Shown here piece after piece: positions 11,583 to 50,009 of a stretch of 64,000 bases of DNA. The notes beneath the pieces are model-generated. The model did no database searches, had not been told where the DNA came from, and saw only the letters and a program-made list of their open reading frames with translations. The number at the start of each line of letters is the position of its first letter. Positions within the stretch are counted from its first letter, which is position 1. This stretch comes from Pseudomonas nicosulfuronedens (lineage in GTDB: Bacteria; Pseudomonadota; Gammaproteobacteria; Pseudomonadales; Pseudomonadaceae), in contig NZ_SWDV01000043.1 in assembly GCF_005877905.1 (NCBI RefSeq), positions 1 to 64,000 of the forward strand, in the 5' to 3' direction. Position numbers and translations under genes: made by a program.

Positions 11583-11612
11583 TTAGGGCTCCTATGGGCA
11601 GTGGTCGCCGCC

Positions 11613-12917: not shown

Positions 12918-12972
12918 GCCTGTCTCCTTGTTGTCGTTGTTGGGTAGGCGTGACGGGAAATGCGATGAAGCT

Positions 12973-16179: not shown

Positions 16180-18837
16180 ATGCATCCAGACAAACTGCTC
16201 GTGACCACCAAGCTGGCGCCGCCGCGCGTCAGTCCTAACGCCATCACCCGCCAACGCCTGCTGGAACAACTGCAGCGCATGGAGCATTGCACCGTCGGTG
16301 TGGTCATCGGCGGTCCCGGCTTCGGCAAGACCACCCTGCTGGTGCAGTGGCGGCAGACCATGCTCAAGGCGCGCGCCGAGGTGGCCTGGTTGACGCTCAG
16401 CACCGAAGACCGCCACCTGGCTTCCTTTTTCGTCTACCTGCGTGCGGCGCTGAACCACCTCGGTATTGCCCTGGAAAACGACATTCCGCTGGAAGGTGCC
16501 AGTGGCGAGTCCCTCGATGGCCTGGTTGCAAGCATCGTCGAAGGCGCCGCAGCAGTCAGCAAGCAGCTTTACCTGGTGCTGGACGACTACCACCTGGTGA
16601 GCGACTCGCGTGCCCATCGCCTCGTCCAGCGCCTGCTGGACCATTGCCCGCAGAACCTGCATTTCATCATTGCCTCGCGCGCCGACCCGCCCTTGAGCCT
16701 GAGCCGCCTGCGCCTGCAGGACCAGGTGCTGGAGCTGGATTGCGCGGGCCTGCCGTTCGACCTCGCGGAAACCCGCAGCTTCCTCGAAACCAACCTGCCG
16801 TCGCTCAAGTTGAGCAGCGAAGAGTCCCACCTGATCCAGGACCTCACCAGTGGCTGGCCCGCCAGCCTGCAACTGATAGTGCTCCTGCTGCGCGCCCGCC
16901 CGGAGGCACGCAACAGCCTGCGCGACCTGGGCTGGATGTCCGATGACCTGCAGACCTACCTGGCCGAAGACGTGATGGTGCATTTGCCTCCCGAGCTGGC
17001 CGGCTTCATGGAACGGGTCAGCTTGTGCCGGCGTTTCAATGCATCGCTGGCAGCGCACCTGACCGGCCACGACAATGCAGGCGAACTGCTGGCGCGAATG
17101 GAGGAAGAGAACCTGCTGGTGTTCCGCATCGTCGGTGACGACCGCCAGCCGTGGTACCGCTTCCACCCCCTGTTCGGTGAATTCCTCGCCGCGCGCCTGG
17201 AGCGCCGCGATCCCACCCTGGTCAATGACCTGCATCGTCGCGCTGCACGCTGGTTCGCTGAGCGCAAGCTGCTGGCCGAGGGACTGCGACATGCGACCGA
17301 GAGCGGTGATCTGGAGTTCGCAGCCGAAGTGGTGGAGCGCTCGGCGCCCACCAGTTGGGGCCTGGACCAGGTCGGGCCGTTGCTGCGCCTGCTCGACCGA
17401 TTGCCCCAGGAAACCCTGTTCAGCCACCCGCGGCTGTTCTTCCGTGGCTGCCTGGCCTATGCGTTGACCGCCCGCCCGGCCAAGGCCGAGTCCTGGCTCG
17501 AGGAGTACAAGCGCAGCGGGGCCAGCCAGGAAGGAGACTTGCTCCAGCACTTGCGCCTGGTCCAGGCGTCCATCGCCATTCAACGTGATCGCACGGATCA
17601 GATCGTCTCGGTTCTGGAGGGGGCTGAGCGCTTCGACGACGATTACTCGGTGGTCCGCTATGGCCCTTCGGCGTTGCTGGCCATCGCCTACGCGGCGGAG
17701 GGCCGGCACATCGACGCCTTGCGCTACCTGGACGAACACCCCATCGCCGAGGCCGACCGAAACGATGAGATGGCCCTGGTGGTCGAGGGTGCCCGTACGC
17801 TCTGCCACCTGCTGGAAGGGCGCATGGCGGATGCCCTGCGCGTCGGCCAGGACCTGTTCTCCCGATCGGTGTCCGCCCATGGCCACCGGTCCGCCAGCGC
17901 TTACCTGTGTGCGGCCTCGCTGGCCGTGGTGTACTGCGAACTCGACCGCATCGACGAAGCGCGCGAAGTACTCGCCAACCGCGTTGGCCTTCTGCAGTGG
18001 GCAATGCCCGACACCATGATCCGCGGCACTATTTGCCGCGCCCGTCTGGACCTCCTGCAGGAATCCGCGGTGGCTGCCCTGGCGTTCCTGGAGCGCCAGG
18101 AACGGCATTTCCGCAGCATCGGCCTGGAGCGCGGAATTGCCCACAGCCTGGCCGAGCAGCTGCGTATCCGTCTGCTGGAGGGTGACGGCGATGGTGCACA
18201 AGCCTGCTTCTCCCGCCTGGAACCGCTGGAAATCACGCATCAGGGCGAGAGGGGCTTCCTCAGCGAAATCCCCATGCTGGTGCAACTGTCGCGCGGGCGC
18301 CTGGCACTGGCCGCTGGCGAGCACGAACTGGCGCAGACGGCACTGGAGGCGGTGCGCGAGTACGCCCAGGCCCTGGGGCGTGGTCAGCTGGAAGTCACTG
18401 CATTGTTGCTGATGGCATTGGGGCGCAGCGCACAACGCCAGCAAGTGGCAGCCGAGTCCCTGCTGGTCGAGGCGCTGCAACTGGGGCGGCGTGGCGGGCT
18501 AGTGAGGACCTTCGTCGATGAAGGGGCCGGGGTGGTCAAGCTGCTCTCCACCCAGCGTGCCCGGCAGTCCTCCCAGGGCGATGTAACTGCATACCTGGAC
18601 GACCTGCTGGCGCGTTTCCGCCGTGAGGAGGTGACCGATCGCGCCTCGCTGTCGCCCCGGGAGCTGGCGATCATCCAGCTGGTGGCTCAGGCGATGTCGA
18701 ACAAGCGTATCGCCCTGACCTTGAACATTTCCCAGGAAACGGTGAAGTGGAACCTGAAGAACGTCTACGCCAAGCTTGGGGTTTCCAGCCGTTATGACGC
18801 CATGTCCTGGGCGCGCAAGCATGGCCTGATCCGCTGA
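16180..18837 (+). CDS. MalT/AlkS-type LuxR transcriptional activator
   Basis: This 885-residue ATP-dependent LuxR-family (LAL/STAND) regulator is close in length to AlkS, the alkane-operon activator. Walker A is GGPGFGKTT at residues 44-52 and Walker B is LYLVLDDYH near 130. A winged-helix and TPR-like middle region follows, then a C-terminal LuxR helix-turn-helix (LSPRELAIIQLVAQAMSNKRIA...TVKWNLKNVYAKLGV). I start it at ATG 16180 (MHPDKLLVTTKLAPPR, a typical MalT-family opening); longer frame extensions are unlikely. It lies between a divergent acyl-CoA dehydrogenase and the large rightward beta-oxidation operon, and is the best candidate activator for both. The inducer is probably a lipid-derived compound (inference from AlkS and context). 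Confidence 0.93.
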   Translation: MHPDKLLVTTKLAPPRVSPNAITRQRLLEQLQRMEHCTVGVVIGGPGFGKTTLLVQWRQTMLKARAEVAWLTLSTEDRHLASFFVYLRAALNHLGIALENDIPLEGASGESLDGLVASIVEGAAAVSKQLYLVLDDYHLVSDSRAHRLVQRLLDHCPQNLHFIIASRADPPLSLSRLRLQDQVLELDCAGLPFDLAETRSFLETNLPSLKLSSEESHLIQDLTSGWPASLQLIVLLLRARPEARNSLRDLGWMSDDLQTYLAEDVMVHLPPELAGFMERVSLCRRFNASLAAHLTGHDNAGELLARMEEENLLVFRIVGDDRQPWYRFHPLFGEFLAARLERRDPTLVNDLHRRAARWFAERKLLAEGLRHATESGDLEFAAEVVERSAPTSWGLDQVGPLLRLLDRLPQETLFSHPRLFFRGCLAYALTARPAKAESWLEEYKRSGASQEGDLLQHLRLVQASIAIQRDRTDQIVSVLEGAERFDDDYSVVRYGPSALLAIAYAAEGRHIDALRYLDEHPIAEADRNDEMALVVEGARTLCHLLEGRMADALRVGQDLFSRSVSAHGHRSASAYLCAASLAVVYCELDRIDEAREVLANRVGLLQWAMPDTMIRGTICRARLDLLQESAVAALAFLERQERHFRSIGLERGIAHSLAEQLRIRLLEGDGDGAQACFSRLEPLEITHQGERGFLSEIPMLVQLSRGRLALAAGEHELAQTALEAVREYAQALGRGQLEVTALLLMALGRSAQRQQVAAESLLVEALQLGRRGGLVRTFVDEGAGVVKLLSTQRARQSSQGDVTAYLDDLLARFRREEVTDRASLSPRELAIIQLVAQAMSNKRIALTLNISQETVKWNLKNVYAKLGVSSRYDAMSWARKHGLIR

Positions 18838-18997: not shown

Positions 18998-19088
18998 GGG
19001 GGTACAACCCCTCCGGCCCCGCACCTATCGTCACCTCAAGCCAGCCGCGCCCAGCGCAGCCCCATATCGGCACCGAGGAGACGCCCGC

Positions 19089-20231
19089 ATGATCCCCCGC
19101 ACGTTGTTCGAGCACGAGCACGAAGAGTTCCGCAACACCGTCCGCCGCTTCCTGGCCGACGAGTGCGTGCCGCACCATGAATACTGGGAGGAGCAGCACC
19201 GTGTTCCCCGTGAGATCTGGTCGCGCGCTGGCGAGCTGGGCATGCTCAACGCCACCACGCCGGAGGCCTACGGTGGGCTGGGTCTGGACCGGCGCTTCTC
19301 GATGATCGCGGTCGAAGAGGTGGCCCGCGCTGGCACGTCGGGGCTGAACGGCTTCAACGTGCACGATATCGTCGCCGGCTACTTCATCAACTTCGGCACC
19401 GAAGAGCAGAAGCATCGGTGGTTGCCGTCCATGGCCACCGGCGAAGTGATCTCCGCCGTAGCGATGACCGAGCCGAATACCGGCTCTGACCTGCAGGCGG
19501 TGAAGACCCGCGCGGTGCTGGACGGTGACGAATACGTCATCAACGGCGCCAAGACTTTCATCTCCAACGGTACCAACTGCGATGTGATCGTGGTCGTCGC
19601 CCGCACCGGCGACAGCGGCAAGGGCTCCCGCGACCTGTCGCTGATCCTGGTCGAGGCTGAGCGCGCTGGCGTGGTCAAGTCCAAGCCGCTGCGCAAGGTC
19701 GGCCTGCACGCCCAGGACACCACCATGGTGTTCTTCGAGGACGTCCGGGTGCCCAAGGACGCGATCCTCGGCGGCGTGCCGGGCCAGGGTTTCATCCAGC
19801 TCATGAAGGAACTGGCCTGGGAGCGCCTGAGCATCGGCATCCTCGGTATCGCCGCGAGCCAGGCCGTGCTGGAGCAGACCGTCGATTACACCCGCGGTCG
19901 CTCGGTATTCGGCAAGCCGATCATTGACTTCCAGAATTCGCGCTTCCGCCTCGCCGACCTGAAGACCGAGATCGCCATTGGCCAGGCTTACGTCGACCGC
20001 TGCATGGAGCTGTGCCTGCGGCACGAGCTCAGCAGCGAGGCGGCAGCCGCCGCCAAGCTCTGGGGCACCGAACTGTATTCGAAGGTGGTCGACCAGTGCC
20101 TGCAACTGCATGGCGGCAATGGCTACATGCTCGAGTACCCGGTGGCACGCCACTACCTCGACAGCCGCGTCAACCGCATCTACGGCGGCGCCAACGACAT
20201 CATGCGCGAACTCGTCGCGCGAACCCTTTAA
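19089..20231 (+). CDS. LCAD-like acyl-CoA dehydrogenase, tandem copy A
   Basis: This acyl-CoA dehydrogenase has 380 residues, the normal length. The start at ATG 19089 follows GAGGAGACGCCCGC; the frame extends upstream but without coding character. The FAD/substrate motif is AVAMTEPNTGSDLQAVKT. The likely catalytic Glu is E245 in KELAWERLSIG, the position used by long-chain and isovaleryl-CoA dehydrogenases. The usual C-terminal Glu motif is YGGANDIMRELVART, as in LCAD. It begins the LuxR-proximal operon and is followed after 22 bp by a close duplicate. The two differ mainly around the region after 'MIA.EE', which lines the acyl pocket, so chain-length or branch preference may differ (inference). 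Confidence 0.94.
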   Translation: MIPRTLFEHEHEEFRNTVRRFLADECVPHHEYWEEQHRVPREIWSRAGELGMLNATTPEAYGGLGLDRRFSMIAVEEVARAGTSGLNGFNVHDIVAGYFINFGTEEQKHRWLPSMATGEVISAVAMTEPNTGSDLQAVKTRAVLDGDEYVINGAKTFISNGTNCDVIVVVARTGDSGKGSRDLSLILVEAERAGVVKSKPLRKVGLHAQDTTMVFFEDVRVPKDAILGGVPGQGFIQLMKELAWERLSIGILGIAASQAVLEQTVDYTRGRSVFGKPIIDFQNSRFRLADLKTEIAIGQAYVDRCMELCLRHELSSEAAAAAKLWGTELYSKVVDQCLQLHGGNGYMLEYPVARHYLDSRVNRIYGGANDIMRELVARTL

Positions 20232-20253: not shown

Positions 20254-21408
<1,155 letters not shown>

Positions 21409-21464: not shown

Positions 21465-23285
21465 GTGTCACAAGAACTGCGTTTCGACGGCAAAGTCGCC
21501 ATCGTCACCGGCGCCGGCAATGGCCTCGGTCGTGCCCATGCGCTGCTGCTGGGCTCCCGCGGCGCCAAGGTCGTGGTCAACGATCTGGGCGTCACCACCG
21601 AAGGCGTGGGCAGCTCTTCCGCCGCAGCTGACGCGGTAGTGGAGGAAATCCGCGCCCTGGGCGGCGAGGCCGTGGCCGACTATCACTCGGTGACCGAGGG
21701 CGACAAGATCGTCGCCACCGCTCTGAAGGCGTTCGGCACCGTCGATATCCTGATCAATAACGCCGGCGTGCTGCGCGACACCTCGTTCCACAAGATGACC
21801 GAGGAGCAGTGGGACCTGATCCAGGCCGTGCACGTCAAGGGCGCCTTCCTACTGACCCACGCTGTGTGGCCGATCATGCGCGAGAAAGGCTACGGCCGTA
21901 TCGTCATGACCTCCTCGGGCGCAGGGATCTTCGGCAACTTCGGCCAGTGCAACTACTCCACCGCCAAGGCGGGGCTGATCGGCTTCGCCAACTCTCTGGC
22001 CATCGAAGGCGCGAGCAAGAACATCCGCGTCAACACCATCGCCCCGATCGCCGCATCGCGCATGGTCATCGCCAGTGGCATCTTCACCGAGGAGATGCAG
22101 GCCAAGCTGCGCGTGGAGGACGTTGCGCCGCTGGTGGGTTGGCTGTGCCACGAGGATTGCCAGGACAGTGGCGAACTGATCGAAGTGGGTGGCGGCTTCC
22201 ACGCCAAGTACCGCTGGGAACGTTCGCAAGGCCGCTTCCTGCACACCGACGGTCTCAGCCCGGAGCTGGTACGTGACAACTGGGAGCGCATCGGTCGCTT
22301 CGACGAGCACGCTGTGCACCCGGCGAACGGCGCGGAAAGCTTCAAGGAACTCTTCGAGCGCATGGACACGGCGGCCACCAAGGGCGGCAACCAATTCATC
22401 GACATGGAAGTGGCCGGCAAGGCCGTTTCCTACTTGGAAACCGAGTACGACCAGAACGACGCCGCGCTCTACGCGCTGGCCGTGGGCGCCGCCAAGGACC
22501 CGCTGGATCGCGCTGAACTGCGCTACGTCAACGAATTCGTCGGCGACGAGTTCCGCGTCCTGCCGACCATGGCCGTGCTGCCGGCCACTGAGGTGTTCCT
22601 GCGCGCCGCCAAGTCCGGCGAGCCGCAACTGGAGGGTCTCAACGTGCCGTTCGGCAAGGGGCTGCACGGCGAGCAGTACACCGTCATGTACCGCCCGCTG
22701 CCGCCGGCCGCCAAGCTCAAGCACACCATGCGCCTGAAGACCGCGATCGATAAAGGCAAGAGCACCGTCACCGTTCTGGCCATCGAGACCACCGACGAGC
22801 ACGGCACGCCGCTGTTCTACAACGAGGTCACTGGTTTCTATCCGGGCGTACCGGGCGCCGGGTTGGCGAAGGTCGCCAGCGAAGAGGTCAACGTACCGCC
22901 GGCCCGTGAGCCCGACATCGTGCTGTCCGACAAGACCGAGGTGAACCAGGCGCTGCTGTACCGCCTGTGTGGTGACTGGAACCCGATGCACGTCGATCCG
23001 GATTACGCCGCCAAGGCGGGCTACGAGAAGCCGTTCCTGCACGGCCTGTGCACCTTCGGCTATCTCGGCCGCCACGTGATCAAGGCGTTCTGCGACAACG
23101 ACTCGCGCCTGTTCAAGAGCGTGCGTGCGCGCTTCGCGGCCATCGTCATGCCTGGCGACACCCTGGAAACCCGCATGTGGCGCGAGTCGCCGACGCGGAT
23201 CATTGTCGAGATGCGCGCCGTGGAACGTGACGTGGTGGTGCTGAAGAACGCCGCTGTCGAACTGTTCGAGCAGGTGCCGGCGTAA
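21465..23285 (+). CDS. MFE-2-like fusion: SDR dehydrogenase + MaoC hydratase 2
   Basis: This 606-residue protein has the domain order of peroxisomal multifunctional enzyme 2 (HSD17B4) without its SCP2 tail. Residues 1-300 are a 3-hydroxyacyl-CoA dehydrogenase of the SDR type, with TGAGNGLG at 15-22, NNAG near 98, Ser about 151, Tyr164 and Lys168 (YSTAK). Residues about 320-606 are a double hot-dog 2-enoyl-CoA hydratase 2, with the motif CGDWNPMHVDPDYAAKAGY near 500. MFE-2 enzymes hydrate 2-enoyl-CoA to the (R)-3-hydroxyacyl-CoA and oxidise it. The start is GTG 21465, supported by AAGGAG seven bases upstream. The gene lies between the tandem dehydrogenases and a thiolase-like gene, forming a beta-oxidation cycle. 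Branched or bulky acyl-CoA is the likely substrate class (family knowledge). Confidence 0.94.
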   Translation: MSQELRFDGKVAIVTGAGNGLGRAHALLLGSRGAKVVVNDLGVTTEGVGSSSAAADAVVEEIRALGGEAVADYHSVTEGDKIVATALKAFGTVDILINNAGVLRDTSFHKMTEEQWDLIQAVHVKGAFLLTHAVWPIMREKGYGRIVMTSSGAGIFGNFGQCNYSTAKAGLIGFANSLAIEGASKNIRVNTIAPIAASRMVIASGIFTEEMQAKLRVEDVAPLVGWLCHEDCQDSGELIEVGGGFHAKYRWERSQGRFLHTDGLSPELVRDNWERIGRFDEHAVHPANGAESFKELFERMDTAATKGGNQFIDMEVAGKAVSYLETEYDQNDAALYALAVGAAKDPLDRAELRYVNEFVGDEFRVLPTMAVLPATEVFLRAAKSGEPQLEGLNVPFGKGLHGEQYTVMYRPLPPAAKLKHTMRLKTAIDKGKSTVTVLAIETTDEHGTPLFYNEVTGFYPGVPGAGLAKVASEEVNVPPAREPDIVLSDKTEVNQALLYRLCGDWNPMHVDPDYAAKAGYEKPFLHGLCTFGYLGRHVIKAFCDNDSRLFKSVRARFAAIVMPGDTLETRMWRESPTRIIVEMRAVERDVVVLKNAAVELFEQVPA

Positions 23286-23370: not shown

Positions 23371-24483
23371 ATGAATCGTCGCGTCAATGTGATTGGCGTT
23401 GGCTTGACCCCGTTCCGCCTGGCGGGCGCCAGTGGGGCCGGCGCGGACTCGGCCGTTGCGGTCGTGCGCCTGGCCCTGGCGGACGCGGGGATCGATTTCG
23501 CCCTGGTCGGCGCGCTTTACTGCGCTGCCGCCGGCGCGGCGCCCCATGCCGGGCAGGAAGCCTGGCGATCGCTGGGGCTGACCGGCATCCCCGTGTTCAA
23601 CCTGCAAAGCGACGGCGCCGGGGGGGCCAGCGCATTGTTGCTGGCGCGCCAGGCGGTGGAGACAGGTGCGGCCGAATGCGTGCTGGTACTCGGCGTGGAG
23701 CCGGCCATGGCCCATGCCGCCAGCGCTGAAGTCGCCCTGGGCAATGCGCTGCATGGCGCTGCTGCCGAAGAGTACCTGGCGCGCTACGCTGCGCGCCGCG
23801 AAAGTCTGGCGATGCTGGCGGTGAAGGCCCGTGAGCACGCCGCTCGCAATCCCGACGCGCTGCTGCGCGCCCCCCTCAGCCTGGAGCAAGTCCTGCTCGA
23901 ACCGCAGACTTTCGGCCCGCTCAGCGCCTCGCAGTGCTGCACTCCCGCCGAGGGCGCCGCCGCGGTGGTGCTGTGCTCCGACGCATTCGTCCGCAAGCGC
24001 GGCAACAAGCGCGCGGTGCGGATTATCGCCCAGGCGCAGTGCGGCGAACTGACGGCAGGGGCCTGTGGGGAGACGGCAATCCGTGCGGCAGGCTATGACA
24101 TCGCCGCGACCGCCGCCCGCCTGGTCTATGAGCGCGCCGGCCTGGGGCCGGAGGAAATCGACCTGTGTGAACTTCAGGACGCCACCGGCAGCGCCGAGCT
24201 TCTGCTGTATGAGGCCCTGGGTTTCTGCCGCGAAGGTGACGCGGAGAAGCTCATCGAGGATGGCGACAACACCTATGGCGGCAATCTCGTGGTGAATCCG
24301 TCCGGCGGCTTGCTGGGCCGGGGGCATGCTCTGGGCGCCAGCGGGCTGGCACAATGCGTCGAGCTGGTCCGCCAACTGCGCGGTGCCGCCGATACCCGCC
24401 AGGTGCCGGGCGCGCGCTACGCGCTGCAGCACAGCCAGGGCGTGCAGGGCGACGCTGTGGTGACCCTCTATGCTCGCGACTGA
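23371..24483 (+). CDS. SCP-x-type thiolase homologue lacking the nucleophilic Cys
   Basis: This 370-residue thiolase-fold protein is clearly related to the two SCP-x-type thiolases at 26408 and 42458, and aligns with them without gaps through residue 90. Those proteins have Cys82 in NVNNNC(S/G)SGS; here the segment reads NLQSDGAGGA, so position 82 is Gly. Their HDCF motif is QDAT here. The later His is kept (GRGHALGASG), as is DGDNTYGGNLVVNPSGGLL. The protein is about 22 residues shorter, in the loop domain. It is in an intact operon between the MFE-2-like gene and an acyl-CoA ligase, with a good frame and no stops, so it is not an obvious pseudogene. It could be a thiolase-fold retro-aldolase of the Ltp2 kind, or a non-catalytic partner subunit; ordinary thiolysis is unlikely. 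Confidence 0.88.
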   Translation: MNRRVNVIGVGLTPFRLAGASGAGADSAVAVVRLALADAGIDFALVGALYCAAAGAAPHAGQEAWRSLGLTGIPVFNLQSDGAGGASALLLARQAVETGAAECVLVLGVEPAMAHAASAEVALGNALHGAAAEEYLARYAARRESLAMLAVKAREHAARNPDALLRAPLSLEQVLLEPQTFGPLSASQCCTPAEGAAAVVLCSDAFVRKRGNKRAVRIIAQAQCGELTAGACGETAIRAAGYDIAATAARLVYERAGLGPEEIDLCELQDATGSAELLLYEALGFCREGDAEKLIEDGDNTYGGNLVVNPSGGLLGRGHALGASGLAQCVELVRQLRGAADTRQVPGARYALQHSQGVQGDAVVTLYARD

Positions 24484-24560: not shown

Positions 24561-26258
24561 ATGAACGATCAACAAGAAAAACCGACATTGCTACAGCGCT
24601 TCCTGCACTGGGAACGCCTTATGCCTGACGCCCCCTACCTGCACCAACCGCAAGGCCAGGGACACAATGAAAGCTACAGTTGGCACGCGGTAGGCGAACA
24701 GGCCCGGCGCATGGCCGCGTACCTGCAATCGCTGGATCTGCCCGCGCGCTCCAGCATCGCTATCCTCGGCAAGAACAGCGCGCACTGGATCATCGCCGAC
24801 CTGGCGATCTGGATGGCCGGGCACGTCAGCGTTCCGCTGTACCCCTCAGCCAACCGCGATACCGTGGCATATGTACTGGAGCACGCCGAAGTGCGCCTGT
24901 TGTTCCTCGGCCACCTGGACGGCGGCGCCGCGGGCTGGGATAAACTGCGCGACAGCGTGCCGGCGAGCCTGCCGGTGATCGAATTGCCATTGCTGGCAAT
25001 TGGCGAAGGGCAATCCTGGCAGTCCCTGATGGATACCTGGGAGCCGTTGCAGACGGTGGCGCAAACCCGGCGTGCTGACCTGGCCACCATCATCTACACC
25101 TCTGGCAGCACCGGTCGACCCAAGGGGGTGATGCACACCTTCGACAGCATGTGTTCCAGCTGCGAATCGACTGTTGGCATGTATGCAGGCGGAGCTGGCG
25201 TGGCGCCGACCGACCGGCTGCTGTCCTACCTGCCTCTGGCGCACACCGCCGAGCGCGCGGTGGTCGAAGCGCTGTCGTTGCTCAATGGCTGCCAAGTGTT
25301 CTTCAACGAAGGACTGGAGACCTTCGCCGACGACCTGCGCCGGGCGCGGCCGACCATCTTCATGTCGGTGCCGCGGCTGTGGGGCAAGTTCTACCACGGT
25401 ATCAGCGAGCGCATTCCACAGTCAGTGCAGCAGGCTGCCTTCGCCGATCCGCAACGCAGCGAGGCGATGCGTCAGCAGATCCTCGGCGCGCTCGGACTGG
25501 ACCAGGTGCATACCGCGCTGTCCGGCTCGGCGCCGCTGCCAGTCGCAGTGCTGGAGTGGTATCGCCAGCTCGGCCTGGAGCTGCTGGAGGGCTACGGCAT
25601 GTCGGAGAACTTCGGTTGCTCCCACTTCAACCAGCCTGGCGAGGTACGTGTCGGCTACGTTGGTTCGAGTGTGCGCGACGTGCAGTGCAGGATCGCCGAG
25701 AACAACGAGATCCTGGTGAAGAGTCCAGGACAGATGCTCGGCTACTACAAGGAGCCGGAGCTGACCCGCGACAGCTACACCGAGGACGGTTTCTTCCGCA
25801 CCGGTGACCGTGGCGAACTGGACGAAGCGGGACGCCTGCGCATCACCGGGCGGGTGAAGGAACTGTTCAAGACCACCAAGGGTAAGTACGTGGCGCCTGT
25901 TCCGATCGAGGCACGCCTGGGCAACAACGAGCATGTGGAGGGTGCCTGTGTTACCGGCGTTGGTCTGGCGCAACCGGTGGCGCTGATCAATGTCTCGCCG
26001 GACACGCGTAACGCGCTGGCTGCCCCGGAACGGCGGGCGACTCTGGAAGCCGAGCTGGAAGCCTTCCTGGAATCGACCAACCAGCAGCTGGAAGCGCATG
26101 AGCGGCTGGCCTGCCTGGTTCTGGTAAGCGAACCCTGGAACGTCGACAACGGCCTGCTGACGCCGACCCTCAAGATCCGCCGCAACCTCATCGAAGAGCA
26201 TTACCAGGCGCGCCTGGACGCCTGGTGTGCGAGCCGTCGCGCGGTAATCGTCGAGTAA
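24561..26258 (+). CDS. AMP-forming fatty acyl-CoA synthetase (FadD-like)
   Basis: This 565-residue member of the AMP-binding superfamily activates a carboxylic acid to acyl-CoA. The P-loop YTSGSTGRPKGVMH is near residue 180, the A5-type motif is EGYGMSENFG, and TGDRGEL...GRVKELFKTTKGKYVAP forms the hinge and C-terminal lysine region. It is shorter than long FadD proteins such as mammalian ACSL but in the range of bacterial long-chain ligases. It starts 77 bp after the thiolase-like gene and ends the first rightward operon, followed by a stem-loop at 26274-26294. It supplies CoA esters for the surrounding dehydrogenases. Exact chain length is unknown. Confidence 0.92.
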   Translation: MNDQQEKPTLLQRFLHWERLMPDAPYLHQPQGQGHNESYSWHAVGEQARRMAAYLQSLDLPARSSIAILGKNSAHWIIADLAIWMAGHVSVPLYPSANRDTVAYVLEHAEVRLLFLGHLDGGAAGWDKLRDSVPASLPVIELPLLAIGEGQSWQSLMDTWEPLQTVAQTRRADLATIIYTSGSTGRPKGVMHTFDSMCSSCESTVGMYAGGAGVAPTDRLLSYLPLAHTAERAVVEALSLLNGCQVFFNEGLETFADDLRRARPTIFMSVPRLWGKFYHGISERIPQSVQQAAFADPQRSEAMRQQILGALGLDQVHTALSGSAPLPVAVLEWYRQLGLELLEGYGMSENFGCSHFNQPGEVRVGYVGSSVRDVQCRIAENNEILVKSPGQMLGYYKEPELTRDSYTEDGFFRTGDRGELDEAGRLRITGRVKELFKTTKGKYVAPVPIEARLGNNEHVEGACVTGVGLAQPVALINVSPDTRNALAAPERRATLEAELEAFLESTNQQLEAHERLACLVLVSEPWNVDNGLLTPTLKIRRNLIEEHYQARLDAWCASRRAVIVE

Positions 26259-26273
26259 CTCCAGCCCCCTCTT

Positions 26274-26294
26274 GCCGGCCCTTGCGGGGCCGGC
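26274..26294 (+). terminator. GC-rich hairpin after acyl-CoA ligase
   Basis: GCCGGCCC-TTGCG-GGGCCGGC forms an 8-bp stem 15 bases after the ligase stop. No T-run follows. It probably marks the end of the first operon. Confidence 0.55.
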
Positions 26295-26329
26295 GAGCCC
26301 CTCGCCACTCCCCCTGACACGGGGGGCTC
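26295..26329. repeat. C-tract/G-tract hairpin 4
   Basis: GAGCCCC...GGGGCTC forms the outer arms, and CCCCC-TGACAC-GGGGG (26310-26325) is an alternative inner stem. It sits about 80 bases upstream of the second thiolase operon and is a member of the dispersed family. Confidence 0.55.
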
Positions 26330-26407
26330 AGCGCCTTCCGTGATCCTCCCTACCATGCCGGTACAAGCAAGGCACGGTGAAACCGGGCCACCATGGGAGG
26401 AATGGAA

Positions 26408-27586
26408 ATGACGAACAAAGTCGTGGTCGCCGGAGTCGGCATGATCCCCTTCACCAAGCCGGGGGCGAGCCTGAGCTACGACCTGATGGGCGCCCAGGCC
26501 GCGCGCCTGGCGCTGGAAGACGCGGGGGTGAAGTACAGTGCCATCCAGCAGGCCTATGCCGGCTACATCTACGGCGACTCCTGCTGCGGTCAGCGCGCGC
26601 TGTACCACGTCGGCCTGAGTGGCATCGCACTGTTCAACGTCAACAACAACTGCTCCAGTGGCTCGACCGCATTGTTCCTGGCTCGCCAGGCGATTCAGAG
26701 CGGCGCCATCGACGTGGCCCTGGTGCTGGGCTTCGAACAGATGAATCCAGGCGCGCTGAGCAGCCACTACAGCGACCGGCCGAACGCCGCCGACCCCTTC
26801 ATCGAACGCTGCGACGCGCTTCTGGACGTCGCCGAGTTGCCCACCGCGTTGCGCATCTTCGGCGGTGCGGGGCTGGCTCACATGCAGCGCTTCGGCACGC
26901 CGCTGCAAAGTTTCGCGAAGATTCGCGCCAAGGCCAGCCGGCATGCCACGCGCAACCCGCTGGCGGTGTTCCGCAAGGAAGTCAGCCCCGAGGACGTGCT
27001 CAACGACCAACTGCTCTGGCCGGGCGTGATGACCCGCCTGATGGCCTGCCCGCCGACTTGCGGGGCCGCCGCCGCGGTGCTCTGCAGCGAGGACTACGCG
27101 CGCCGCCATGGTCTGGATGCGCGGGTCTGGATCGCCGCCCAGGCGATGACTACCGACGACGGCCGCAGTTTCGAGGAAGACCTGCGCTATGCCGCCGGCT
27201 ACGGCATGGCTCTGAGCGCCTCGAAGCAGGTCTACGAGGCGGCCGGCATCGGCGCGGAAGACATCGACGTGGTCGAGTTGCACGACTGCTTCGCGCACAA
27301 CGAACTGGTCACCTATGAAGGCCTCGGCCTGTGCCCCGAAGGTGGCGCAGCGAAGTTCATCGACGACGGCGACAACACCTACGGCGGCCGCTACGTGGTC
27401 AATCCGTCCGGTGGCCTGCTGTCGAAGGGTCATCCGATCGGCGCTACCGGCCTTGCCCAGTGCTACGAGCTGACCCAGCAACTGCGTGGCAATGCCGAGC
27501 AGCGCCAGGTCGAGGGCGCCCGCGTGGCACTCCAGCATAACGTCGGGATCGGCGGCGCCTGTGTCGTCACCCTGTACCGCAACTGA
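26408..27586 (+). CDS. SCP-x/lipid-transfer-type thiolase
   Basis: This 392-residue 3-ketoacyl-CoA thiolase belongs to the group related to the thiolase domain of SCP-x. The start is set at ATG 26408, seven bases after GGGAGG; ATGs at 26393 and 26402 precede or overlap that ribosome site. Catalytic residues are nucleophile Cys82 (NVNNNCSSGS), HDCF near 292 and the GHPIGATG His near 342. It opens the second rightward operon (thiolase, two acyl-CoA dehydrogenases, alkylsulfatase). Thiolases of this group often act on branched or sterol-derived acyl chains. It is closest to the thiolase at 42458 among the window's proteins. Confidence 0.93.
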   Translation: MTNKVVVAGVGMIPFTKPGASLSYDLMGAQAARLALEDAGVKYSAIQQAYAGYIYGDSCCGQRALYHVGLSGIALFNVNNNCSSGSTALFLARQAIQSGAIDVALVLGFEQMNPGALSSHYSDRPNAADPFIERCDALLDVAELPTALRIFGGAGLAHMQRFGTPLQSFAKIRAKASRHATRNPLAVFRKEVSPEDVLNDQLLWPGVMTRLMACPPTCGAAAAVLCSEDYARRHGLDARVWIAAQAMTTDDGRSFEEDLRYAAGYGMALSASKQVYEAAGIGAEDIDVVELHDCFAHNELVTYEGLGLCPEGGAAKFIDDGDNTYGGRYVVNPSGGLLSKGHPIGATGLAQCYELTQQLRGNAEQRQVEGARVALQHNVGIGGACVVTLYRN

Positions 27587-27596
27587 GGAGGCCGCC

Positions 27597-28811
27597 ATGG
27601 ATTTTCTTCCCGACGCCGGCCTTGACCAGTTCCGCCAGGAGATCCGCGAGTTCCTGCGCCTGCACCTGCCGGCTGAACTGGCGGGCAAACCGAGCTCCAG
27701 CATCCGTTCCGCGCTGCCCGACCTGGTGCGCTGGCAACGCATCCTCGATGAGCGCGGCTGGGGCGCGCCGTACTGGCCGAAAGAGCATGGCGGCACCGGT
27801 TGGAGTGTGCTGCAACGCCTGGTTTTCGACGAGGAATGCGTTGCTGCCGGTGCACCAACCCTCGACGGCTTCGCGCACAAGTTGCTCGGGCCGGTGATCA
27901 ATCACTTCGCCAGCGCCGAACAAAAGGCCGCGCAGATTCCACTGATCCTCAAGGCCGAGCGCCTGTGGTGCCAGGGCTTCTCCGAGCCGGGCTCGGGCTC
28001 GGACCTGGCATCGCTGCGTACCCGCGCCGATCTGGATGGCGATCACTACGTGATCAATGGTCAGAAGATCTGGACCAGCTATGCCCACCAGGCCGACTGG
28101 ATCTTCCTGCTGGTGCGCACTGACTCCAGCGCCCGCAAGCAGGCCGGCATCAGCTTCCTGCTGGTGGACATGAAGACCGCGGGCATCACCGTACGACCGA
28201 TCCACAGCATCGACGGCTGCCATCACCTCAACGAGACCTTCTTCGACAACGTCCGTGTGCCGGTGACTAACTGCATCGGCAACGAAGGCGATGGCTGGAA
28301 GATCACCAAGTTCCTGCTCAACAACGAACACGCCACCGCCGCCGACCTGCCGATCCTGCGCCGCTACCTGATGCAACTGCGCCAGTTGGCGCGCAGCCTG
28401 CCGGCAGGTGACGGGTGGCTCGGCGAACAGACAGGGTTCGCCCGGCAACTCGCAGGTTTTGAGGCCGAGGTCGATGCGGTCGCCATGCTGGTCAAGCGCG
28501 TGGCGGCGATGGAGCAAGCCGGCGACCACAGCCCGGCGGCCCACGCCCTGGGGTCGATCCTGAAGGTGCGCGGTACCGAACTGCAGCAGCGCATCACCGA
28601 GTTCATGGTGCAAGCGCTGGGTGACTTCGGCGCCATCGCCTATCCGACTCCTGAGGATCAGCCCGAGGACCCGCCCGGCGCGGAACTGCCGCAGGAAGCG
28701 CTGGCCCGTGGCATCGCCATGGAAATGTTCTTCCGCCGCGCCTCGACCATCTACGGCGGCACCAGCGAGGTCCAGCGCGGGATCATCGCCAAGATGCTGT
28801 TTCAACTCTGA
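27597..28811 (+). CDS. Acyl-CoA dehydrogenase, probable alpha subunit of a pair
   Basis: This protein has 404 residues, starting at ATG 27597; the ribosome site GAGGAG overlaps the stop of the thiolase gene. Motifs are CQGFSEPGSGSDLASLRT (substrate/FAD), INGQKIWTSYAHQADW, and RRASTIYGGTSEVQRGIIAK near the C-terminus. The late Glu of MCAD-type enzymes is Gly here; the base is more likely the Glu of KFLLNNEHATA. Fifteen bases downstream lies a second, shorter acyl-CoA dehydrogenase. Such adjacent unequal pairs are known as heterotetramers in steroid side-chain degradation (ChsE1/ChsE2 type), and that is my best reading here. It is not proven by sequence. Confidence 0.92.
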   Translation: MDFLPDAGLDQFRQEIREFLRLHLPAELAGKPSSSIRSALPDLVRWQRILDERGWGAPYWPKEHGGTGWSVLQRLVFDEECVAAGAPTLDGFAHKLLGPVINHFASAEQKAAQIPLILKAERLWCQGFSEPGSGSDLASLRTRADLDGDHYVINGQKIWTSYAHQADWIFLLVRTDSSARKQAGISFLLVDMKTAGITVRPIHSIDGCHHLNETFFDNVRVPVTNCIGNEGDGWKITKFLLNNEHATAADLPILRRYLMQLRQLARSLPAGDGWLGEQTGFARQLAGFEAEVDAVAMLVKRVAAMEQAGDHSPAAHALGSILKVRGTELQQRITEFMVQALGDFGAIAYPTPEDQPEDPPGAELPQEALARGIAMEMFFRRASTIYGGTSEVQRGIIAKMLFQL

Positions 28812-28826
28812 ACGGGCCCAGCAACC

Positions 28827-30002
28827 ATGAATTTCGAACTTTCTTCCGAGCAGCAGATGCTGCAGGACAGCGTGCGCCGCTTCATCGACAAGGAGTACAG
28901 CTTCGAGGCTCGCGTCGCCCGCCTGCAGGCGGGTGAAGGCAGCGATTCCAGCTGGACTACCTTTGCCGAACAGGGCTGGCTCTGTGCCGCACTTCCGGAG
29001 GTCCATGGCGGCCTTGGCGGCAACATTGTCGACAGTGTGGTGATCGCCCAGGAACTGGGTCGCGGACTGGTCCTCGCGCCTTATGCCGGCTGCGCCGTGC
29101 TGGCCGCGCAGACCCTGGTCGCCGCGGCAGCACCTGAACATCAGAAGCGCTGGTTGCCGGCCCTGGCCGATGGCTCCGCACGGCTGGCCCTGGCTTATGC
29201 CGAGGTGCAGACCCGTGGGCTAGTTGAGGGGCAACGCGCTAGCGCGAAACGCCATCCTGGCGGCTATCGGCTGAACGGCCGCAAGACGCTGGTAATGGGC
29301 GGCACGCAGGCCAATGCGTTCATCATTTCCGCGCAGGCGGAGGAGGGCTGCACGCTGTTCCTGGTGGAGGCTGACCTCCCAGGTCTGGGCCTGATCCCGG
29401 TACCGCTGCACGACGGCAGCTGGGTGGTGGAGTTGCAACTGTCGCAGGTCGACGTCAGCGAAGCCGCCGTACTGGGACGACCGGGCGAGGGCCTGGCTGC
29501 GCTGCGCCAGGGCATGGCCCAGGCCACTGCCTGCCTCTGCGCCGAGCTGGTGGGCGGCATGGAGCGGGTCATCGAGATCAGCGCTGACTATCTCAAGGTG
29601 CGCCAGCAGTTCGGAGTACCCATCGGCAGCTTCCAATCCCTGCAGCATCGCATGGCCGACATGGCAGCTCAGCTTGAGCTGGCACGATCGGCCTTGTTCG
29701 TCCTGCTCGATGCCATCGACAACCCGCAGATCCACGACCTGCAGCTGCGCACCTCGCAGATCAAGGCGCAGGTCGGCCGCGCGGCTAAGTTCGTCTGCGG
29801 GCAGGCCATCCAGTTGCATGGCGGGATCGGTACTACCGAGGAGTGCAGCGTCGGCCACTACTTCAAGCGCGCGGTAGTCGCAGACCTGCTCCTGGGCAGC
29901 GCTGACAGCCATGAAGCTTACTGCACCCAGCGGCAGCAGGCGGCCCTCGCGGACGCTGCCATGTCGGCGACGATGAATTCAATGACTTACGGAGAACAAT
30001 AA
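28827..30002 (+). CDS. Acyl-CoA dehydrogenase-like protein, probable beta subunit
   Basis: This 391-residue member of the acyl-CoA dehydrogenase family is more diverged than its neighbour. The N-terminal helices (ELSSEQQMLQDSVRRFIDKE) and C-terminal QLHGGIGTTEECSVGHYFKRA are typical. The middle lacks the usual 'TEP..GSD' substrate motif (ALAYAEVQTRGLVEG instead), and there is no Glu at the LCAD-type base position (TACLCAELVGGMERV). It may therefore be a structural or FAD-sharing subunit for the preceding gene. Its TAA stop overlaps the ATG of the alkylsulfatase gene, which indicates coupling. Confidence 0.9.
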   Translation: MNFELSSEQQMLQDSVRRFIDKEYSFEARVARLQAGEGSDSSWTTFAEQGWLCAALPEVHGGLGGNIVDSVVIAQELGRGLVLAPYAGCAVLAAQTLVAAAAPEHQKRWLPALADGSARLALAYAEVQTRGLVEGQRASAKRHPGGYRLNGRKTLVMGGTQANAFIISAQAEEGCTLFLVEADLPGLGLIPVPLHDGSWVVELQLSQVDVSEAAVLGRPGEGLAALRQGMAQATACLCAELVGGMERVIEISADYLKVRQQFGVPIGSFQSLQHRMADMAAQLELARSALFVLLDAIDNPQIHDLQLRTSQIKAQVGRAAKFVCGQAIQLHGGIGTTEECSVGHYFKRAVVADLLLGSADSHEAYCTQRQQAALADAAMSATMNSMTYGEQ

Positions 30003-32005
30003 TGATTTCCCTCACTACCTCGGGCATGTGCCGCCGAAATGCCCTGGCGCTCGCCGTCCTGTTGGCATGCACGGGTATGGCCAGCGCAGCGGAGGCGGAC
30101 AACGGCCCGGCCCTGGCAAAACCGGCCAGCGCGGCGACCCGTGCCAGCAACGCAGCAGTGCTGCAGGCACTACCGTTCACCGACCGGCAGGACTACGAAG
30201 ACGCCAGCCGCGGCTTGGTCGCTGCATTCTCCGGTCAGATCAGGGACGCCAACGGCAAGGTGGTCTGGGATACCCACCAGTACGACTTCCTCAACGCCGA
30301 GCAGGCCCCGGATTCGGTGAACCCGAGTCTCTGGCGGATGGCCCAGCTCAACAGCAACGCCGGGCTGTTCCAGGTTGCCGAGCGCCTCTACCAGGTGCGC
30401 GGGATGGACCTGGCGAACATGACGATTATCGAGGGCGACAAGGGCCTGGTGATCATCGATCCGCTGATGACCAGCGAAACGGCGCGCGCCGCCCTCGACC
30501 TGTACTACCGTAATCGCCCGCAGCGTCCGGTGACGGCGGTGATCTATACGCACAGCCATATCGATCACTTCGGTGGCGTTCGCGGAGTCATCGACGAGGC
30601 CGATGTGGTCGCCGGCAAGGTGCAGGTGTACGCGCCAAGCGGCTTCATGGAAGAGGCGGCGAGCGAGAACGTCTTCGCCGGCACCGCGATGTTCCGCCGT
30701 GCCCAATATCAGTCAGGCGGCCTAGTGCCGCGAGGGGACAAAGGGCAGGTGGATACGGGTATCGGCAAGGGCGGCCCAACCGGCGGCAGCATTGGCCTGA
30801 TCGCCCCGACCGTGCTGATCGACAAGTCCAATCAGCAGGTGCGCGTCGATGGCATCGACATCGAGTTCCAGCTGACCCCCGGCAGCGAAGCGCCGGCGGA
30901 GATGAACCTGTACCTGCCGCAGATGCGCGCGCTGTGCATGGCCGAGAACGCCACCCACACCCAGCACAACATCCTCACCCCACGGGGTGCGCTGGTACGT
31001 GACGCCAAGGCCTGGGGCCGCTACCTCGACGACAGCCTGGTGCGCTATGGCGACCGTGCCGACGTGATGTTCGCCCAGCACAACTGGCCGACCTGGGGCG
31101 GCGAGCGGATCCGCACGCTGCTGGCCGACCAGCGCGACATGTATACCTACATCAACGACCACACCCTGCACCTGCTCAACCAGGGCCTGACCCCGACCGA
31201 GATTGCAGCAGCGATGCAGAAGCTGCCGGGCGACCTGGAACGCAAATGGTATAACCGAGGCTACTACGGCTCGCTCAGCTTCAATTCGCGTGCGGTGTAC
31301 CAGCGCTACATGGGTTTCTATGACGGCAACCCGGCCAACCTAGACCCCTTGCCGCCGCAGGACGCCGGTACTCGCTATGTCGAGGCGCTGGGTGGCGCGG
31401 AGCACGTGCTGGAGCTGATGCGCGCCGCGATGGACAAGGGCGATTACCGCTGGGCGGTAGAGCTGGGCAACCACCTGGTTTTCGCCCAACCGGACAATCG
31501 TGCGGCCCGTGACGCACAGGCCGACGCGCTGGAACAGCTGGGCTACCAGGCCGAGAGTTCGTTATGGCGCAACATGTACCTGTCGGCAGCCGTCGAGCTG
31601 CGCAATGGAGTGCGCCAGGCGAGCCTTCGCAAGCCTTCGGCAGATTTGGTCAAGGCGCTGGAGCCGTCGATGTTCTTCGACTACATGGCGGTGCGCCTGA
31701 ATGCCGAACGGGCGCAAGGCCACGACATGCAATTGAACTGGACCTTCACCGATCGCAAGCAGAGCTTTGCCCTGACCCTGCGCAACGGCGTGCTGACTTA
31801 TCGCGAGCACAGTAGCCACGTGCACCCCGATGCAGCGCTGAGCATCGACAAGGCCACGCTGGACCGCATCAGCCTCAAGGAGCTGGATTTCCCCTCCGCA
31901 CTCAAGCAGGGCTTGGCCAAGGTAGAGGGAGACCCGCGCAAGCTGGGCGAGCTGATGAGCCTGCTGGATGCCTTCACGCCGGACTTCAATATCGCCACGC
32001 CCTGA
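30002..32005 (+). CDS. SdsA1-type alkylsulfatase (metallo-beta-lactamase fold)
   Basis: This 667-residue exported enzyme has the length of the SDS hydrolase SdsA1. A signal peptide ends near residue 30 (GMASAAEA). The metallo-beta-lactamase domain carries the zinc site H184-S-H186-I-D188-H189 (THSHIDHFGG) and the later AENATHTQHN ligand segment. A helical dimerisation domain follows (YGSLSFNSRAVYQRYMGFYDG), then a C-terminal sterol-carrier-like domain (MFFDYMAVRLNAERA...LDRISLKELDF). The family cleaves primary or secondary alkyl sulfates to an alcohol and sulfate. It is the last gene of the thiolase/acyl-CoA dehydrogenase operon and its start overlaps the upstream stop, which links sulfate-ester cleavage to beta-oxidation. 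A strong terminator follows. Confidence 0.94.
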   Translation: MISLTTSGMCRRNALALAVLLACTGMASAAEADNGPALAKPASAATRASNAAVLQALPFTDRQDYEDASRGLVAAFSGQIRDANGKVVWDTHQYDFLNAEQAPDSVNPSLWRMAQLNSNAGLFQVAERLYQVRGMDLANMTIIEGDKGLVIIDPLMTSETARAALDLYYRNRPQRPVTAVIYTHSHIDHFGGVRGVIDEADVVAGKVQVYAPSGFMEEAASENVFAGTAMFRRAQYQSGGLVPRGDKGQVDTGIGKGGPTGGSIGLIAPTVLIDKSNQQVRVDGIDIEFQLTPGSEAPAEMNLYLPQMRALCMAENATHTQHNILTPRGALVRDAKAWGRYLDDSLVRYGDRADVMFAQHNWPTWGGERIRTLLADQRDMYTYINDHTLHLLNQGLTPTEIAAAMQKLPGDLERKWYNRGYYGSLSFNSRAVYQRYMGFYDGNPANLDPLPPQDAGTRYVEALGGAEHVLELMRAAMDKGDYRWAVELGNHLVFAQPDNRAARDAQADALEQLGYQAESSLWRNMYLSAAVELRNGVRQASLRKPSADLVKALEPSMFFDYMAVRLNAERAQGHDMQLNWTFTDRKQSFALTLRNGVLTYREHSSHVHPDAALSIDKATLDRISLKELDFPSALKQGLAKVEGDPRKLGELMSLLDAFTPDFNIATP

Positions 32006-32021
32006 TCGTTGCAGGCAAAAC

Positions 32022-32047
32022 AAAGGCCACCCCACGGTGGCCTTTTT
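32022..32047. terminator. Rho-independent terminator after alkylsulfatase
   Basis: AAAGGCCACC-CCAC-GGTGGCCTTTTT is a perfect stem followed by a T-run. The complementary A-run on the left makes it usable from both directions, between this operon and the convergent alcohol dehydrogenase gene. Confidence 0.92.
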
Positions 32048-32059
32048 CATTTCTGCCAA

Positions 32060-33121: not shown

Positions 33122-33146
33122 GGATTTCTCCGGGCAGGGGATGCGT

Positions 33147-33166
33147 GTGCCCGGCTTGCCGGGCAC
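33147..33166 (-). terminator. Hairpin between LuxC-like and ADH genes
   Basis: GTGCCCGGC-TT-GCCGGGCAC is a near-perfect inverted repeat in the 80-bp gap. It may attenuate read-through into the alcohol dehydrogenase gene. Next to it a short direct repeat (GAGAGTCAAGGG, 33183-33194, and GAGAGTCAAAGGG, 33198-33210) covers the LuxC-like stop codon. Confidence 0.45.
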
Positions 33167-33201
33167 GCTGGATTCAAAGGGTGAGAGTCAAGGGGGGAGA
33201 G

Positions 33202-34659: not shown

Positions 34660-34663
34660 CGGC

Positions 34664-38054: not shown

Positions 38055-38113
38055 AGCGCCTTGGCACCGTGCAGCCTCGGCGCGGTGCCAAGTCAGCCGG
38101 AGGGCTGGAAACC

Positions 38114-38800: not shown

Positions 38801-38818
38801 CGACCGCAGCAGAAACGA

Positions 38819-38841
38819 CACGCCCCGCAGAGCGGGGCGTG
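38819..38841. terminator. Bidirectional terminator-like hairpin
   Basis: CACGCCCCGC-AGA-GCGGGGCGTG forms a 10-bp stem between the convergent TetR and DUF1329 genes. It has no T-run but is stable and in the expected place. Confidence 0.7.
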
Positions 38842-38861
38842 CGTAGTGCAGCAGATCTGAC

Positions 38862-40226: not shown

Positions 40227-40241
40227 GATCGGATACCTGCG

Positions 40242-42457: not shown

Positions 42458-43645
42458 ATGTCGCAGAAAACCTACGTCGCCGGTGTCGGCATGATTCAGT
42501 TCGCGAAGCCCGGCGCCAGCGCCAGCTACATCGAGATGGGCGCCCAGGCCGTGCGCCTGGCCCTGCAGGACGCCGGAATCGACTACCGCCTGGTGCAGCA
42601 GGCTTATGCCGGCTACGTCTACGGCGACTCCACCAGTGGCCAGTCGGCCCTCTATGAAGTGGGCCTGACCGGTATCCCGGTGCTCAACGTCAATAACAAC
42701 TGCGGCAGCGGCTCCTCGGCACTGTGGCTGGCGCGCCAGGCGGTGGAAAGCGGCGCGGTGGACTGTGCGCTGGCCTTCGGCTTCGAGCAGATGCAGCCTG
42801 GCGCCCTGAAGGACCATTGGACCGACCGCCCGGCCACGGTTGGCAAAGGGTGCGCGGTGGCCGACATCGTCTTCCCCGAAGGCGCCGGCATGCCCAACGC
42901 ACTGCGCTTCTTCGGTGGCGCGGGCCTGGAGCACATGCAGAAGTACGGCACGAAGATGGAAACCTTCGCGGCGATCCGCGCCAAGGCCAGCCGCCATGCG
43001 GCGAACAACCCGCTCGCGGTGTTCAAGAAGGTGGTCAGCGTCGAGGATGTGATGGCCGACCAGGTCATCTTCCCCGGCGTGATGACGCGCCTGATGGCCT
43101 GCCCGCCGACCTGCGGCGGCGCCGCGGCGATCATCGTCTCCGAGCGCTTCGCGAAAAAGCATGGCCTGCGCACCGACGTCACCATCCTTGCCCAGTCCCT
43201 GGTGACCGACCAGCCCGAGGCCTTCGACCCGCCGTCGATGATCAGCGCGGTAGGTGTCGGCATGACCCGTCAGGCTGCCAACGAGGTATACGAGAAAGCC
43301 GGCGTCGGCCCAGAGGATATCCGTGTCTGCGAACTGCATGACTGCTTCGCCCAGAACGAGCTGCTGACCTACGAAGGTCTGGGCTTCTGTGCCGAAGGCG
43401 AGGGCGAGAAGTTCGTTCTCGACGGCGACAACACCTACGGTGGCCGCGTGGTCACCAACCCCTCCGGCGGCCTGCTCTCCAAAGGCCATCCGCTGGGTGC
43501 CACGGGCCTTGCGCAGTGCTACGAGCTGACCAACCAGCTGCGCGGCACCGCCGGCGCACGCCAGGTAGAAGGCCTGCAGCACGCCTTGCAGCACAACCTG
43601 GGCCTCGGCGGTGCGGGCATCGTCACCCTGTTCGGTCGCGGCTGA
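42458..43645 (+). CDS. SCP-x/lipid-transfer-type thiolase, second copy
   Basis: This 395-residue thiolase starts at ATG 42458, six bases after GGAG. Nucleophile Cys82 (NVNNNCGSGS), HDCF and GHPLGATG are intact. It is very similar to the thiolase at 26408 and more distant from the Cys-less one at 23371. It opens an operon with two MaoC proteins, an SDR, a DUF2889 protein and two DUF1254 proteins. That set can perform hydration, oxidation and thiolysis. The duplicated copies probably serve different rounds or chain types. Confidence 0.93.
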   Translation: MSQKTYVAGVGMIQFAKPGASASYIEMGAQAVRLALQDAGIDYRLVQQAYAGYVYGDSTSGQSALYEVGLTGIPVLNVNNNCGSGSSALWLARQAVESGAVDCALAFGFEQMQPGALKDHWTDRPATVGKGCAVADIVFPEGAGMPNALRFFGGAGLEHMQKYGTKMETFAAIRAKASRHAANNPLAVFKKVVSVEDVMADQVIFPGVMTRLMACPPTCGGAAAIIVSERFAKKHGLRTDVTILAQSLVTDQPEAFDPPSMISAVGVGMTRQAANEVYEKAGVGPEDIRVCELHDCFAQNELLTYEGLGFCAEGEGEKFVLDGDNTYGGRVVTNPSGGLLSKGHPLGATGLAQCYELTNQLRGTAGARQVEGLQHALQHNLGLGGAGIVTLFGRG

Positions 43646-49992: not shown

Positions 49993-50009
49993 GCTGCTCG
50001 TTTTCCTGT

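Follow-up and report, generated by a model that had tools for sequence, protein, structure and literature searches.

P0001, the 370-residue product of a gene in the window (the whole 64,000-nucleotide stretch of Pseudomonas nicosulfuronedens DNA that was analysed), is homologous to SCP-x-type thiolases but has no catalytic cysteine. The loss of the thiolase machinery in its clade is well supported, and P0001 probably acts as a non-catalytic helper and not as the enzyme of an unexpected C–C cut. We give slightly better than even weight to the specific reading that it is a pseudothiolase, which β-oxidation has retained in a non-catalytic capacity after a clade-wide loss of catalytic residues. 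The features discussed are collected in Table 1.

Table 1 Features of the window, with the basis of each assignment.
Feature	Position	Strand	Basis or size
MalT/LuxR-type regulator, head of conserved block, start codon not settled	16180..18837	+	NCBIfam, synteny
Acyl-CoA dehydrogenase 1 of operon	19083..20231	+	NCBIfam, synteny
Acyl-CoA dehydrogenase 2 of operon (ACAD2)	20260..21408	+	NCBIfam, synteny
MFE-2-type protein (SDR + hydratase-2/MaoC), conserved upstream neighbour	21465..23285	+	Pfam, synteny
Pseudothiolase P0001, SCP-x-type thiolase homologue without catalytic Cys	23371..24483	+	370 aa
Codon 82, GGC (Gly) at nucleophilic Cys position	23614..23616	+	Alignment
QDAT replacing HDCF, residues 269–272	24175..24186	+	Alignment
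GHAL replacing GHPL/GHPI, residues 318–321	24322..24333	+	Alignment
HSQGVQGD replacing HNxGxGGA, residues 354–361	24430..24453	+	Alignment
Acyl-CoA ligase, usual downstream neighbour	24561..26258	+	NCBIfam, synteny
Intact SCP-x thiolase A (Cys, HDCF, GHP, HNxG)	26393..27586	+	NCBIfam, alignment
Intact SCP-x thiolase B	42458..43645	+	Alignment

An alignment of P0001 with SCP-x A and SCP-x B, the window's two intact thiolases of this type, confirmed the core of the original prediction: glycine stands at residue 82 in place of cysteine, QDAT stands in place of HDCF, and the late GHxxGxxG histidine (in GHALGASG) and the DGDNTYGG...NPSGGLL core are kept. The gene is also intact, as had been described, with an ATG start and CAGGAG upstream. 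Changes beyond those already noted are the replacement of the GHP proline by alanine, the HSQGVQGD form of the last motif, and the shortening of a loop region by about 24 residues (24 columns against SCP-x A and 25 against SCP-x B). The Pfam domains Thiolase_N, Thiolase_C_1, and Thiolase_C all score above their cut-offs. The best NCBIfam model is NF006102, which scores 381.6 bits against a cut-off of 436; intact SCP-x A scores 653.4. The best PDB match is 6hsj (E 1.1e-81), the zebrafish SCP2-thiolase type 1. Codon 82 is GGC in 3/3 near-identical genomes, that of the window and the single-contig genomes G006 and G020, and a sequencing error is very unlikely because the codon recurs in the latter two. 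A 410-aa open reading frame on the reverse strand overlaps P0001 (23200-24432) and was regarded as the kind of antisense frame that GC-rich DNA ordinarily contains.

Relatives were collected by a genus search (25 genomes), a family search (398 genomes), and a search of genome contigs (54 loci). Near-identical copies within the 25 genus genomes are confined to G006 and G020, and the more distant relatives came from the family and genome-contig searches. Thirteen non-redundant degenerate rows were retained (P0001, L010, L016, L024, L036, L037, L077:814-1917, and L099 to L104), and the others are 45–59% identical to P0001. In a tree of 94 rows, the degenerate rows and the near-copy L009 form one clade of 14 rows with support of 99/95, in a tree with long branches, L077 above all, and a midpoint root. 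Eleven near-identical or fragmentary rows and the loci fetched later were left out of the tree. The clade branches next to the 73 intact SCP-x rows and not from among them (fork 97/83), its exact placement being unsure because of the long branches and midpoint root. A recent duplication of SCP-x A or B is not supported by this topology. Three rows come from Pseudomonas putida 31753, P. putida 31303, and P. insulae and the others from the genus or family of the window, and the clade has so far been seen only in Pseudomonadaceae. None of its members was found outside that family among 369 class-level genomes, with at most five candidates scored per genome.

Homologues outside the clade carry the cysteine. 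The Cys/HDCF/GHP/HN set is carried by 12/12 class-level matches (E<=1e-100, outside the window's own genome). In the genome-contig search, 50 of the 52 readable main matches carry the cysteine, and the two without it are the clade members L036 and L037; the remaining two of the 54 loci are unreadable at the nucleophile column, L083 having no N-terminal part and L088 being a short fragment. A search of plasmids yielded 489 records, none of which reaches 60% identity (15 of the 489 are among the matches listed). The concern that orthologues normally carry cysteine, which the original prediction named as a threat to itself, was not borne out, for the syntenic orthologues lack it and the cysteine belongs to homologues outside the clade.

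Across the 13 clade rows, the residues at the nucleophile position are G, S, A, C, L, Q, A, A, E, E, D, H, and P. Conservation of residue 82 among orthologues had been proposed as a check, and the outcome is divided: cysteine is absent from 12 of the 13 rows, but glycine is not fixed and the column is nearly free. Intact-invariant columns were defined as those with the same residue in at least 26 of 27 intact rows, which gave 125 columns. Within the clade, column 82 varies most among these, showing 10 different residues. The 27 intact rows were selected as intact, which makes their 27/27 cysteines a matter of choice; the unpicked counts are the 50/52 and 12/12 given above. Among the 10 active-site motif columns, a single one is retained by 12 or more of the 13 rows, as against 54 of the remaining 115 intact-invariant columns (Fisher p 0.04, with the 10 columns chosen by the analyst and alignment columns not being independent). 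The one that is kept is the aspartate of HDCF (D270). The GHP histidine, present in P0001, is retained in 3/13 rows.

The rows differ in how much has gone. The only cysteine in the nucleophile column belongs to L016, where the alignment is uncertain owing to an insert, and L016 has lost the histidines of HDCF, GHP, and HNxG. In L036 and L037 the losses among the ten motif columns are limited to the cysteine and phenylalanine, plus a glycine to serine change in the last motif, and L037 has a cysteine one position after the nucleophile column. These two rows look like the earliest stage of loss. A seven-row sister subclade has S272, Q319, Q355, and D359 in 7/7 rows and keeps H269, D270, and H354. 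These fixed pocket residues carry little weight as a sign of a new enzyme, because 79 of the 120 columns between residues 251 and 370 are invariant in this subclade and its C-terminal part is thus conserved generally. P0001 has neither the HDSS/GQA/HQ set of this subclade nor the HDC/GHP/HN set. If confirmed, L036 and L037, followed by P0001 and the seven-row subclade, form a natural series of progressive catalytic-site loss under selection. The segment before residue 82, presumably the thiolase dimer-interface strand, is hypervariable in the clade, which suggests that the usual thiolase dimer may not form.

Purifying selection on the pseudothiolase is real and weaker than on its neighbours. 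No internal stop occurs among the listed clade matches of the genus and family searches; the clade rows were drawn from open reading frames 200 aa or longer, a sampling that broken copies would escape. Pairwise dN/dS was computed by the Nei-Gojobori method for seven genes in seven genomes (21 pairs, which are not independent), and the pseudothiolase has a median of 0.245. The medians for the same 21 pairs are 0.123 for MFE-2, 0.103 for ACAD2, 0.140 for the ligase, 0.111 for the regulator, 0.109 for DUF1329, and 0.059 for SCP-x B. The pseudothiolase value is the highest of the seven in 19/21 pairs. Its mean identity over the 21 pairs is 61.9%, compared to 87.7% for MFE-2, 88.9% for ACAD2, 79.6% for the ligase, 77.4% for the regulator, 81.4% for DUF1329, and 92.3% for SCP-x B. 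Larger, unequal genome sets (11 for the pseudothiolase, 8 for SCP-x B) gave a median of 0.317 for the pseudothiolase versus 0.073–0.206, with 46 of the 55 pseudothiolase pairs in the 11-genome set falling within 0.05<dS<1.5. The protein is also partly conserved, with 55 of the 125 intact-invariant columns holding their residue in 12 or all 13 of the clade rows. Thirty-five of these 55 lie after residue 250, around ELxD, DGDNTYGG, and NPSGG. Catalytic residues lost clade-wide from frames that are intact and under selection are the pattern by which a pseudoenzyme is recognized.

The location of the gene inside a β-oxidation operon, as originally proposed, held up on comparison with other genomes. 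A block of regulator, acyl-CoA dehydrogenases, MFE-2, pseudothiolase, and acyl-CoA ligase recurs. With MFE-2 as the bait, matches at E<=1e-200 were found in 11 of the 398 family genomes, and the pseudothiolase directly follows MFE-2 in 10 of these 11 (three of the ten are near-identical, and G020 was placed by coordinates). It adjoins MFE-2 in 11 of the 13 clade rows, and this shared slot is independent support for the common descent of the clade. The exceptions are L016 and L024. L016 belongs to G004, which has no match to this MFE-2 at E<=1e-200; the gene lies at L091:9229-10401, and a 2721-aa YadA-type adhesin open reading frame starts about 0.7 kb downstream. L024 belongs to G013, where the MFE-2 stop and the ligase start are separated by 140 bases (L122, G013:C9) and the slot is empty, with no P0001 match within the 140-base gap; L024 itself lies about 44 kb away. 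In L037 a DUF1254 gene, not the ligase, lies downstream of the pseudothiolase.

MFE-2 also accompanies intact SCP-x enzymes. In 7 of the 54 genome-contig loci (L038, L039, L040, L043, L047, L054, and L067), mostly on Myxococcota or delta-type contigs, an intact SCP-x begins 0.8–1.3 kb after the end of an MFE-2 homologue. Most other genome-contig loci have no MFE-2 before SCP-x, and several of them are short contigs. In L130, L131, and L133, intact SCP-x adjoins an SDR region resembling that of MFE-2 (a match of about 284 aa). Since intact SCP-x stands beside MFE-2 outside the family, the ancestral SCP-x thiolase likely stood next to MFE-2. A relative of SCP-x B is present in 15/15 genomes examined at 84–100% identity, each with Cys, HDCF, GHP, and HNxG.

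The idea that P0001 is an Ltp2/Sal-type retro-aldolase working with a DUF35 partner, which had been the lyase reading of the original prediction, is very improbable. The thiolase fold and the β-oxidation context are compatible with it, as is the glycine at the nucleophile position, which CtSal shares (PMC12329534). The same paper describes TcLtp2 (6ok1) as using Tyr294 of YDHF and Tyr344, and CtSal (9myr) as using Tyr302 and Cys304 of YDCY; Y302F abolishes CtSal activity, and C304A/S have none detectable. P0001 lacks these residues. The essential tyrosine is Gln269, and the acid Cys304 of Sal is Ala271. CtSal Gln352, which that paper equates with Tyr344 of Ltp2 (PMC12329534), falls on His319 in P0001. 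P0001 is also far closer to SCP-x in the PDB comparison, the scores being 1.1e-81 for 6hsj against 1.6e-21 for TcLtp2 and 2.6e-20 for CtSal. A search of the whole genome found two DUF35 (PF01796) genes, on contigs C41 and C2, and none on the window's contig C43. Each of the two lies about 0.6 kb or less from a different thiolase-like gene whose aligned motif is YDAF. These two thiolase-like genes (L097 and L098; C41 ~64070-65463 and C2 ~116560-117893) are also without the cysteine, and the C41 gene is closest to 4u4e, then to CtSal and TcLtp2. L097 and L098, each paired with DUF35, are by sequence the genome's candidates for Ltp2/Sal-like enzymes, not P0001. Residues and DUF35 placement together argue strongly against an Ltp2/Sal aldolase and leave the proposed C–C cleavage step in this operon unsupported.

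The non-catalytic partner, the other option offered originally, fits better than the lyase, the partner role itself being inferred. On this reading P0001 descends from an SCP-x thiolase that probably adjoined MFE-2; its Pseudomonadaceae clade lost the nucleophile along with most of the other residues of catalysis, and the protein may then have been kept for a non-catalytic part in the β-oxidation system. By known chemistry, a protein without the cysteine cannot carry out thiolysis by the usual route. P0001 would thus perform neither thiolysis nor Ltp2/Sal-type retro-aldol cleavage, and thiolysis would be left to the intact SCP-x enzymes. P0001 may bind a partner, most likely intact SCP-x B (15/15 genomes) or the adjacent MFE-2 (11/13 rows), or may hold acyl-CoA. 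Several findings sit awkwardly with the pseudothiolase partner. The hypervariable strand before residue 82 makes the usual (hetero)dimer doubtful, and the new fixed pocket residues of the seven-row subclade may mean a new ligand or reaction. The empty slot in G013, the position of L016 and L024 away from MFE-2, the DUF1254 gene that takes the place of the ligase in L037, and the cysteine in the nucleophile column of L016 also count against it.

A neofunctionalised enzyme, with a new lineage-specific and Cys-free active site on the thiolase fold (e.g., an acyl-CoA lyase, decarboxylase, or hydrolase), is a possible but less favoured account of the same selection. H269, D270, S272, Q319, H354, Q355, and D359 are fixed in the seven-row subclade while residue 82 varies, the glutamine of that subclade in the GHP-His column falls on CtSal Gln352, and L036 and L037 keep HDC, GHP, and HN though the cysteine and phenylalanine are lost. 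P0001 and CtSal also have the glycine in common (PMC12329534). However, no single alternative catalytic set is conserved across the 13 rows, P0001 has neither of the two sets found in its relatives, and the subclade would show fixed residues in a region with 79/120 invariant columns anyway. A related and rather unlikely scenario is that thiolysis was dropped once and the empty acyl-CoA pocket was rebuilt differently in each lineage, giving a substrate-gating subunit or a new reaction for SCP-x/MFE-2. That the gene is functionless and decaying, carried along in the operon, is improbable. It is the fastest evolving of the seven genes (61.9% mean identity vs 77.4–92.3% in the 21 pairs) and its slot is empty in G013, but the open frames and a dN/dS well below 1 disfavour pure decay. 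The same operon place is also held across lineages whose copies are 45–59% identical to P0001, and 55/125 intact-invariant columns survive. An ordinary thiolase in which Gly82 is a sequencing or annotation error has a negligible chance of being correct and nothing in its favour; the same codon stands in three genomes, and P0001 has several further motif changes. The pseudothiolase reading remains the one we prefer.

Thiolase-fold proteins without the cysteine are already known. It shares with SCP-x/SCP2-thiolase (6hsj; NF006102) the same domains and the DGDNTYGG...NPSGG core, and that type is its best PDB match; it has lost the nucleophilic cysteine, the His, Cys, and Phe of HDCF, the proline of GHP, and the asparagine of HNxG. 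By the marks of SCP-x membership, P0001 has the thiolase domains and the GHP histidine and lacks the cysteine, HDCF, and a score above the NF006102 cut-off. The Ltp2/Sal steroid side-chain aldolases likewise have a thiolase fold without the nucleophilic cysteine, with glycine there in CtSal, whereas P0001 is without the tyrosine base, a Cys304/Tyr344 equivalent, and a DUF35 gene alongside. Mycobacterium smegmatis thiolase-like protein 1 (MsTLP1) has the thiolase fold and is reported to have no catalytic fingerprints and no thiolase activity (PMC3406046). P0001 resembles it in fold and in the loss of fingerprints. MsTLP1 has an extra C-terminal β-barrel domain and no fingerprints at all, whereas the 370 residues of P0001 comprise thiolase domains only and keep the GH and the last-motif histidine. 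The ChsH1-ChsH2 hydratase of β-oxidation has one non-catalytic subunit (PMC11321319) and is a precedent for an inert paralogous partner; its fold is MaoC rather than thiolase, and its complex was demonstrated, whereas that of P0001 is conjectural. BbsCD, another such precedent, reportedly has inactive subunits.

Inert paralogous partners are already known for hydratases and short-chain dehydrogenases of β-oxidation. Among the open-licence papers listed in the literature searches, no title or abstract opening describes an inert partner for a bacterial SCP-x thiolase. If the pseudothiolase is confirmed, thiolases would join the β-oxidation families that have such partners, and there would be a warning against annotating such genes as acetyl-CoA acetyltransferases or lipid-transfer proteins.

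MFE-2 and SCP-x are the animal pair for 2-methyl-branched and sterol-side-chain acyl-CoA. An alkyl sulfatase with a weak SCP2 match at its C terminus (30002-32005, +) and two PF00884 sulfatases (7314-8912 and 52428-53876, both −) share the 64-kb window with many β-oxidation genes. These enzymes make branched or sulfated surfactant-like lipids a plausible substrate and suggest that the window is an island for sulfated lipids or surfactants. The stretch from the ligase to DUF1329 (26258-38862) is about 12.6 kb here, about 1 kb in L090, and about 5 kb in L107, and it may be a later insertion. It holds SCP-x A, two dehydrogenases, the alkyl sulfatase, alcohol dehydrogenases, and a LuxC-type reductase. 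A 476-aa open reading frame adjoining the LuxC-type acyl-CoA reductase (34664-36094, −) has no Pfam match at the limit used. The DUF1329-DUF1302 pair occurs in two copies (38862-42107 and 48616-51776, the latter −). A histidinol-dehydrogenase-like gene adjoins an MFS transporter (10299-13022, −) and is perhaps a catabolic alcohol dehydrogenase.
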